Assembly: GCA_017432365.1 (NCBI GenBank)
Contig: JAFRJG010000011.1
Span: 1 to 62,415, forward strand
Source: Candidatus Saccharimonadota bacterium
Lineage (GTDB): Bacteria > Patescibacteriota > Saccharimonadia > Saccharimonadales > Saccharimonadaceae
DNA length: 62,415 bases
Direction: 5' to 3'
In this document: positions 2-1,938 of the stretch, piece by piece
How the letters are laid out: each line of letters starts with the position of its first letter
Position numbering within the stretch: position 1 is the stretch's first letter
Made by a program: the position numbers and the translations under genes
Notes under the pieces: model-generated
Database searches by the model: none
What the model saw: the letters and a program-made list of their open reading frames with translations, nothing else
What the model was told of the DNA's origin: nothing

Positions 2-35
2 TTGACAAACTCGGGGGGGGGGGGGGGGGTAACAT
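2..35 (+). promoter_or_regulatory. Promoter with poly-G spacer, candidate phase-variable
   Basis: TTGACA at 2-7 and a TAACAT -10-like box at 30-35 flank a spacer of 22 nt that contains 17 consecutive G (13-29). Loss of five G would give the optimal 17-nt spacing. The tract touches the window edge, so its length may also be affected by sequencing or assembly. It reads toward the surface protein starting at 76. Confidence 0.5.
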
Positions 36-75
36 TACAAACAGAAAGGTCAAAAAGTTAATAAAAACAAGTCAA

Positions 76-1284
76 ATGAAACACACTTCTCTAATGCTCG
101 CCGGCGCAGTATTCTTGTTCAGTTCCGTAGTGGCATTTAGTCCTCTTGCCACCGACTCCGTTCATGCTACCGCCACAATTTCGGAATTGAATCAAGTCTT
201 TTTCGGTGGCGTGCCAAGCGATAACTTTGCCGCCTGCGCGTTGGAGGCCTACGCCGAAGCTAACTCCACTACTCTAGCGGAACTCGCAGAATCCTTTGAT
301 TCTGGTTCCGGATCCATCTCTGAAGAGTCCTTCGCTAACGTCACTACAATCTCTTGCAATCACGCGACCGAACTGAAAATCGCCCTGCTCGATGTTTTCC
401 CAAAACTCGAAGTACTCGATTTATCATTCAGCACTATTGCTAGTTTTGATGGCTTTTACCATCCCTCTTTAAGAGAGCTTAATCTCGTCGGCGCCTCATT
501 TGTCGATGACCAGATGCAAGAGAAGTTAATCACTTTTGCCCTTGATGAATCTTCCGGTCAATACTCTCTCGATTTATCCCCTCTCCAATTCCTCGCCAGC
601 GCCGATCCCGCCGATCAACAATATCAGCTCAAAACCGTCGACGCGTACGAATCGACTTCAATGAACCCCGACGAAGTCGGTTATAGTTTCGATTCCTCCA
701 CTGGTATTGTCACTTCGGACGGCTCATATCACGCTCGTGCTCTCAATTTTGAGCACTCTCCGTACGGCTCCGTTGACGAACCAGAGTATCGAACGTTCAG
801 TGTATATTTTAGCACTCCTTGCGTCGGCGTTGGTATATCGTTTGACGCAGACCTTGTCCAATACGATGATCGCGAAGCGACCTCATATCTCGCGCCACAA
901 GCTTGCTTGGCACTCTACTATCTCGGCGACATCATCGACTCGGATGATTTTATCGCTAGTGCTACCAAGACCGCAGAAAACATCGCTAGCGACAATGATA
1001 AACTCGCTACTCTGGAAAAAGTCACCTTAGCTCCGGCAGCCGTACCGATAGATCAAACCGTAATCTCTGACCCCGCGCGTATTACTTACGCGATTCCAAC
1101 CTCCCCCGAAGCCAGAAACAGCTATACTCTCGTCTTCCGCTTTACGACTGCAGATAAAATTAAAGCCCCTAATACCGGCGCGCCAATCGAAACAAATACC
1201 TCCCTTAGTCCAGTCATATACCTTCTTCCTGCCTGCATTCTCGCCGTTTTTATATTTCTCCCGCTCCTCTACGTCGTCAAATAA
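76..1284 (+). CDS. Secreted/anchored surface protein with LRR-like segment
   Basis: A 402-residue protein with an N-terminal signal peptide (residues 1-31, hydrophobic core then an Ala cut region) and a C-terminal membrane helix (about 379-401) ending in Lys. Just before the helix is APNTG (364-368), which resembles a sortase-type motif although the gap to the helix is longer than usual. Residues 110-145 (LEVLDLSF, LRELNLVG) look like leucine-rich repeats. The order signal peptide, LRR-like part, stalk, motif, helix suggests a cell-surface protein. The ATG follows a purine-rich leader without a strong Shine-Dalgarno. I do not recognise the full-length family. The upstream G tract suggests variable expression. 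Confidence 0.75.
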   Translation: MKHTSLMLAGAVFLFSSVVAFSPLATDSVHATATISELNQVFFGGVPSDNFAACALEAYAEANSTTLAELAESFDSGSGSISEESFANVTTISCNHATELKIALLDVFPKLEVLDLSFSTIASFDGFYHPSLRELNLVGASFVDDQMQEKLITFALDESSGQYSLDLSPLQFLASADPADQQYQLKTVDAYESTSMNPDEVGYSFDSSTGIVTSDGSYHARALNFEHSPYGSVDEPEYRTFSVYFSTPCVGVGISFDADLVQYDDREATSYLAPQACLALYYLGDIIDSDDFIASATKTAENIASDNDKLATLEKVTLAPAAVPIDQTVISDPARITYAIPTSPEARNSYTLVFRFTTADKIKAPNTGAPIETNTSLSPVIYLLPACILAVFIFLPLLYVVK

Positions 1285-1309: not shown

Positions 1310-1891
1310 ATGAGTAATCAAGAATACTTAACCGAAGAAAACTATCGAAAAGGCCAAAACACTCTCAAGCTTATCGCCACAGTTATACTAATCGTATCTA
1401 TAATTGCCGGCGTACTCCTCATTACTCTCGGAATTATCGAAAAATCAACCGGCTCAAACAACGCCTCTGCTATCTCTTTCTCTGACGTTGAAGATAGAGC
1501 TAACGCAGATTTCGAAACCGCCACCAGCCAAATGCTTGAAGAATCGAGACAACAAGCAGAAGACATGGAGCGTAAGTTTGATTCTAGCGTCGAAGCAACA
1601 AGGCGCGAGTTTGATGCTGATGTCGCAGCCATTAATCGCAACTTTGGCTCGACCGTTATGATTATGGTAGGTGTTTTTATTCTTATAGCTGGTGCTATGC
1701 TTTCCGGGTTCCTCTTCCTCATCGCTCATCGTCGAGAAGTTACGGCCTTTGGAGTCCAGCAGATGATGCCAATTGCTAAGGAAGCCACCGAAAAAATTAC
1801 ACCTACGGTTGCTAAAGCCGCTGGTACGGTTGCCAAAACCGTTACCGAGGGAATTACCCGCGGAACTAAAAACGACAAAGCGAAGAAATAA
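1310..1891 (+). CDS. Two-helix membrane protein with coiled-coil loop
   Basis: A 193-residue protein with membrane helices at about 20-44 and 114-140. The loop between them (60-110) is charged and helical and probably forms a coiled coil. The C-terminal 45 residues are Lys/Ala/Thr rich, as in an amphipathic helix. It lies 25 bp downstream of the surface protein and is followed by a strong terminator, so the two probably form one transcript. No family is recognised and no function can be assigned. Confidence 0.65.
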   Translation: MSNQEYLTEENYRKGQNTLKLIATVILIVSIIAGVLLITLGIIEKSTGSNNASAISFSDVEDRANADFETATSQMLEESRQQAEDMERKFDSSVEATRREFDADVAAINRNFGSTVMIMVGVFILIAGAMLSGFLFLIAHRREVTAFGVQQMMPIAKEATEKITPTVAKAAGTVAKTVTEGITRGTKNDKAKK

Positions 1892-1910: not shown

Positions 1911-1938
1911 AAAATCCAGCCAGTACGGCTGGATTTTT
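1911..1938 (+). terminator. Intrinsic terminator
   Basis: A 10-bp stem (AAATCCAGCC / GGCTGGATTT) with a 5-nt loop runs into T residues. It closes the two-gene unit starting at 76. Confidence 0.85.

Follow-up and report, generated by a model that had tools for sequence, protein, structure and literature searches.

A poly-G tract in the promoter spacer of a putative surface-protein gene in a gut Saccharibacterium: a candidate phase-variable promoter

The window analysed here, a stretch of 62,415 bases that starts at the very first base of a contig (C1) of a Saccharibacteria genome, opens with ATTGACAAACTC-G17-TAACATT, and this arrangement raises the question of whether a long run of guanines between two promoter elements could serve as a switch for the gene that follows. 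The genus is one of gut Saccharibacteria, and the GenBank records that agree in promoter sequence with contigs of four of its genomes (G115, G092, G094, G122) are Candidatus Saccharibacteria from the gut of sheep, goat and roe deer. An earlier note on this DNA had claimed that TTGACA and a -10-like TAACAT are held 22 nt apart by the tract, and that shortening to about 12 G would restore a 17-nt spacing. The coordinates (Table 1) bear out the former, and the arithmetic of the latter is confirmed, in that AACTC and G12 together make 17 nt. We consider it very probable that the G tract is part of a phase-variable promoter of the sigma-70 type that switches a sortase-anchored, LRR-like protein, and the evidence for this reading, along with the alternatives to it, is set out below.

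Table 1. Features at the start of the window.
Feature	Position	Strand	Remarks
-35 element TTGACA	2..7	+	6/6 match; conserved in alignment A2
Non-G portion of spacer, AACTC	8..12	+	Identical five bases precede a G14 tract in relative G149
G17 tract, remainder of -35/-10 spacer	13..29	+	G16 in the copy at the end of contig C19
-10 element TAACAT	30..35	+	Directly 3' of tract; 4/6 versus TATAAT; alignment A2
Diverged copy of leader element CATAAAGGTTATAYA	42..56	+	11/15 identity, alignment A2
Gene for 402-aa LRR-like protein, putatively surface-located	76..1284	+	Hydrophobic signal-like N-terminus, APNTG, hydrophobic C-terminal segment, lysine end
Second gene, 193-aa membrane/coiled-coil-like protein	1310..1891	+	25 nt downstream of first; sub-cut-off Pfam matches only
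Terminator-like hairpin and T-rich tail	1920..1932	+	Weak: 5 such sites found versus 4.5 expected in shuffles

After this tract, G7 is the longest G run that the window contains, the observed count of G9 matches was reached by no shuffle, and the genome as a whole has a run of at least ten G at only three places: the window tract, the end of contig C19, and the inside of contig C9. The layout recalls the porA, opc and fetA promoters of Neisseria meningitidis, where a homopolymer lies between the -10 and the -35 (PMC2791445, as far as the available part of that paper goes), and the parallel with porA drawn in the earlier note is upheld to that extent. A switch of this kind comprises a homopolymer placed between the two promoter elements, a slippable length with a spacer able to pass about 17 nt, and a surface protein as its product, along with tract lengths that vary between the cells of a population and transcription that follows tract length. 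The first is present in the window, and the second is met by G17 and G16; the -10 of the window promoter is itself weak.

The spacing that such a promoter would need can be estimated from its relatives. Through the 5' leader element, members of the promoter family can be located with or without a tract; the element occurs at 35 sites in 24 of the 174 genus genomes, with none in the reversed control. It was possible to use 25 of 30 leader loci for the spacer count, two duplicates, two loci with a poor -35 and one with an N in the spacer having been dropped. No run of eight G is present in 21 of these 25, and their spacers range from 15 to 21 nt, 16 of them measuring 16-17 nt. By comparison, the spacers of pure-tract promoters extend from 12 to 26 nt, with a median of 18 over 39 sites as opposed to 17 without a tract (Mann-Whitney P = 0.007; Brown-Forsythe P = 0.047); the window locus contributes both its copies to these 39, and three records identical to counted sites were left out. 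The window's 22 nt exceeds all 21 tract-free relatives, while the 21 nt of the copy on C19 equals the longest. As the tract-free spacers are mostly 16-17 nt, G17 and G16 are predicted to be weak or off, and lengths of about G11-G13 to be on. In the absence of expression data, we predict weak or absent transcription from the promoter as assembled, and the best transcription near G11-G13.

Under this reading, slippage of DNA polymerase on the G run would add or remove bases and thereby change the distance between the -35 and the -10. At 16-18 nt, RNA polymerase would start well, whereas at G16-G17 (21-22 nt) the promoter would be weak or off, and in a clonal population some cells would then make the LRR-like surface protein and the product of the gene downstream while others would lack them. 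Slippage in living cells is an inference, as is the on/off effect.

Two further observations concern the leader family. The element lies just 3' of the -10, mostly before surface-protein-like genes (loci L205-L234 in addition to the window), and is too distant from the start codon for a usual ribosome-binding site. Interrupted G runs (GGGGGGAGGG and similar) are seen at 16-17 nt spacers in L206, L212, L223 and L226, as if tracts had been locked in the on state by a point change.

The tract begins only 12 bases from a contig start, and it is conceivable that the poly-G was created or lengthened there by short-read chemistry and that the genome has no long tract at all. The 3' end of contig C19 of the same genome matches window bases 1-70, but with G16 for G17 and three substitutions, all to A; in this overlap, which takes up 69 bases in C19, the 12 bases before the tract are identical, and the three differences fall within the 41 bases that follow it. 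The flanks thus match on both sides of the tract in both contigs, which is not what a chemical artefact would predict. A third copy of the locus was not found in the genome, and from these matches we read the start of C1 and the end of C19 as a single locus split over two contigs, with C19 presumably giving the upstream side. The assembly, then, broke at the tract with two lengths, G17 and G16. In each of the three substitutions, a lone base other than A with A on both sides has become A (3/3 among 6 such positions in the 41; P = 0.0019), a pattern expected of out-of-phase reads past a slipped homopolymer. Such dephasing-type errors lend the artefact some support, and they also indicate that the tract is real and slip-prone at least in vitro; G17 versus G16 alone is no proof of variation in vivo, as an error of sequencing or assembly could account for the difference and no reads are at hand. 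Seen twice, the tract is real, with some doubt about its precise length.

The same question arises for the genus as a whole, where 6 of 30 tracts in a one-per-genome sample are placed no more than 100 bp from a contig end, the expected number being 0.26. This excess would suit an artefact, but a mixture of lengths that breaks the assembly explains it equally well; either length mixture or sequencing difficulty would cause it. In relatives, tracts occupy this promoter position at a good distance from contig ends, for example at C4:40746 in G035, and sequencing chemistry cannot yield the strand orientation of the tracts or their fit to the -35 and -10. A tract made by sequencing is therefore very unlikely in our estimation, and a switch at tract loci may also explain draft-genome breaks in this group. 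A similar break has been reported in a Gracilibacterium, another CPR bacterium, at a gene with a hypervariable 9-mer repeat (PMC6851277, in the portion accessible to us); that gene is repeat-based and assembly-breaking like the window locus, but its repeat is an in-frame coding one and not a promoter homopolymer. Contigs C5 and C17 of G445 had been considered as a second locus broken at two lengths, and this was rejected, their orientation showing two upstream contexts with a common downstream end.

The layout is by no means confined to the window. The genus was searched for TTGACA-N(1-18)-G8+-TANNNT (G8-N-TANNNT), with the same pattern read backwards as the control, and 46 sites were found in 31 of 174 genomes, the control giving 0; the sites represent 45 loci, the window locus having been counted at both its contig ends. 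Together with the 16-17 nt norm of the tract-free spacers, this recurrence agrees with the earlier proposal of a promoter with a tract in its spacer that is on near 12 G, the effect on expression being inferred. In the order, sites were present in 30 of 392 genomes, 29 of these in the window's own family, and in the phylum they were present in 11 of 379, nine outside that family, again with no control matches in either scan. A broad scan, run without a control, has the promoter-like pattern in many other phyla among the matches listed, indicating that the arrangement is not unique to Saccharibacteria or Patescibacteria. Taken by itself, TTGACA-N-G10-TANNNT appears, among the matches listed and again without a control, in Streptobacillus notomytis (L143), in L126, L144, L181 and L195 (Treponema), and in many MAGs of Clostridia and Bacilli, many of these matches being host-associated.

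The promoter pattern was also set aside altogether, and 90 distinct tracts of ten or more G were taken from the genus without regard to promoters (30 one-per-genome and 60 picked in order among the matches listed without going through all of them, with most sites near contig starts excluded). By a strict rule, 22 of the 90 lie between TTGACA and a -10, whereas random positions drawn from this DNA do so in 5 of 16,984 cases; by a lax rule, 35 of the 90 are in promoter position versus 371 of 16,929. Motif scans cannot show promoter activity, and the window tract appears to be one of many such promoters. Conservation of the window promoter itself rests on a single relative: among 60 relatives, a recognisable homologue of the 402-aa protein exists in G035 only, where the promoter reads TTGACA-AATC-G14-TAATAT, followed by a full leader element, with the tract inside a contig.

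On the opposite strand, none of the 90 tracts (0/90) lies between promoter elements. This one-sidedness would fit a strand-specific structure too, and with it a real but fixed element, in which the G run sets a constant promoter strength, as stiff DNA or a G-quadruplex, and changes of length are irrelevant or rare. Neither a within-population length distribution nor expression data exist to speak against such an element, but near-identical paralogous promoters within one genome carry unequal tracts (10 and 11 in G030, 10 and 15 in G028, 10 and 14 in G095), the lengths on C1 and C19 differ as well, and the tract-free members of the promoter family keep to their preferred spacing. Mismatch repair restrains slippage, and a G17 without MutS would be expected to slip. 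We accordingly regard a fixed element as improbable.

MutS was found in 0 of 174 genus genomes, the same search being positive in 11 of 14 control genomes, and in only 2 of 246 genomes of the order. With MutS absent, long runs in the genus should be unstable. The absence was also considered as the cause of the tracts and rejected as such; the absence is order-wide, and hence permissive, and does not discriminate the lineages that bear tracts. In Neisseria, variation of the opc promoter was raised in a mutS mutant (PMC3447861, known to us from part of its text).

What, then, would be switched? The earlier note took the downstream gene to encode a surface protein, and the motifs are in keeping with this: the third mark of a porA-type switch is met by the signal-like N-terminus, the sortase-type APNTG anchor and hydrophobic segment at the C-terminus, and the presence in the genome of two sortase genes above the family cut-off. 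A surface location is inferred from these motifs only, and exposure has not been shown. The LRR matches of the 402-aa protein are weak (E 0.0035, below the cut-off), a search against solved structures returned nothing significant, and a single-sequence AlphaFold2 model was uninformative (pLDDT 36). The 193-aa gene is probably co-transcribed, by inference, and the hairpin that follows it is the likely end of a two-gene operon, albeit on weak evidence. Upstream, C19 carries rmlD, for dTDP-4-dehydrorhamnose reductase (TIGR01214, E 2e-86), on the same strand. The position of the gene behind rmlD, together with a spacer beyond the tract-free range, would allow that expansion of the tract has silenced the gene for good, or that transcription reads through from the upstream rhamnose gene, so that the tract no longer has any regulatory part. 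The downstream frame is nevertheless intact over 402 codons with its anchor motif, the leader element is partly retained, and the layout is maintained in many genomes, and a decayed promoter seems to us very unlikely; a promoter that can still switch remains the preferred reading.

It is not supported that tracts favour surface genes in general, and no such claim is made here. By crude signal and transmembrane prediction, there was no surface-protein surplus behind tract promoters, a positive result being obtained for 19 of 37 first ORFs and for 31 of the 62 ORFs of the window that form the comparison set (Fisher P = 1.0), although the window is rich in envelope genes. Many genes behind tract promoters look cytosolic. 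As a separate observation, 7 of 18 first ORFs behind tract promoters that lack a signal peptide have an N-terminal tag like GWESVAxxAxxFxG (L056, L057, L061, L062, L071, L072, L079). The proteins that bear it look otherwise mostly unrelated, and the tag is found in 2 of 82 background ORFs of their own genomes; the motif was chosen post hoc, and that it is an export tag is a possibility.

Beyond the window locus, the sole tract of ten or more G in this genome lies at C9:28512-28523 (G000, L022) and reads as C12 in the coding sense. It falls just behind a type IV pilin-like domain (PF07963, E 0.0038, below the cut-off), at the junction with the C-terminal region; the domain is present in 162 of the 174 genomes of the genus. 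In the assembled sequence the frame closes after 270 aa, and every third run length tested extends it to 555-557 aa. The gene thus has the mark of an intragenic contingency locus, an in-frame tract of which one length class modulo 3 gives the full-length product, and it is a candidate for the second such locus of the genome, with the reservation that the run length may be an assembly error.

In relation to known systems, the window promoter resembles those of porA, opc and fetA in that a homopolymer fills the -35/-10 spacer and the target is a putative surface protein; its length sets promoter strength in Neisseria, whereas no length or expression data exist here. It differs in belonging to a Patescibacteria epibiont lineage without MutS, in the presence of several such promoters in some genomes, in poly-G that, in the 90 tracts tested, is confined to the coding strand and mostly adjoins the -10, and in a product predicted to be anchored to the cell wall, as opposed to an outer-membrane porin. 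A second parallel is seen in Bifidobacterium breve, where G-tract slippage in a sortase-dependent pilus has been measured by deep sequencing (PMC9187656, going by the part available). Both cases involve a gut bacterium, a G tract and a sortase-linked surface structure; the tract of B. breve is intragenic and not in a promoter spacer, and the pilin-like gene on C9 is the closer parallel to it. That gene also resembles the TM7x minor pilins PilX1 and PilX2, which have C-terminal domains, normal host binding depending on PilX2, a proposed adhesin (PMC12206443, insofar as its accessible text shows). What they have in common is a C-terminal domain added to a type IV minor pilin; the C9 gene differs in its C12 at the junction and its broken frame as assembled, no phase variation being described for the TM7x pilins in that text. 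In the open-licence PMC literature, searched partly through top matches only, no report of phase variation or slipped-strand switches in Saccharibacteria, Patescibacteria, CPR or TM7x was found, the Gracilibacterium gene being the nearest, and the earlier statement that such switching has hardly been described in Patescibacteria is consistent with this. The window thus presents a candidate switch whose kind is known, but of which no report was found for this group, and its operation has not been shown, reads and expression data being lacking.

With a random promoter switch before anchored surface proteins, a single clone would have several binding states at its disposal; by inference, the switch may play a part in variable interaction with host bacteria or within the gut. 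If this is so, part of host binding could be tested through tract lengths in existing metagenome reads, and the porA-type switch, familiar chiefly from pathogens that face immune pressure, would extend to parasites of bacteria. It is tempting to go further and suggest that gut Saccharibacteria and scattered Patescibacteria carry a MutS-less phasome of poly-G promoters and intragenic tracts, each clone being a random mixture of surface states; we hold the chances of this to be evenly balanced. If true, the states would comprise adhesins of the anchored LRR and repeat types, a pilin carrying an extra C-terminal domain, and perhaps N-terminally tagged exported proteins, and bacterial hosts or phages would be the target of this diversity no less than an immune system.

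Finally, tracts were also seen in or near other genes. A tract near a pilin gene in G028, at first considered intragenic, proved to be in the promoter of the next gene. Among 30 pilin loci, a G or C run of at least eight bases was present in 2, inside the gene in one (L295, this genome) and downstream of the gene in the other (L308). Tracts outside promoters include an intragenic class just past the start codon, ATGAG[CA]ACTAAAATTCGTCT-G10-12 (G073, G104, G107). In the fuller form ATGAG[CA]ACTAAAATTCGTCT-Gn-TATAAAAG, runs of G10-G12 from the seventh codon, often by contig ends, are found in L035, L053, L267, L272, L273, L274 and L340.
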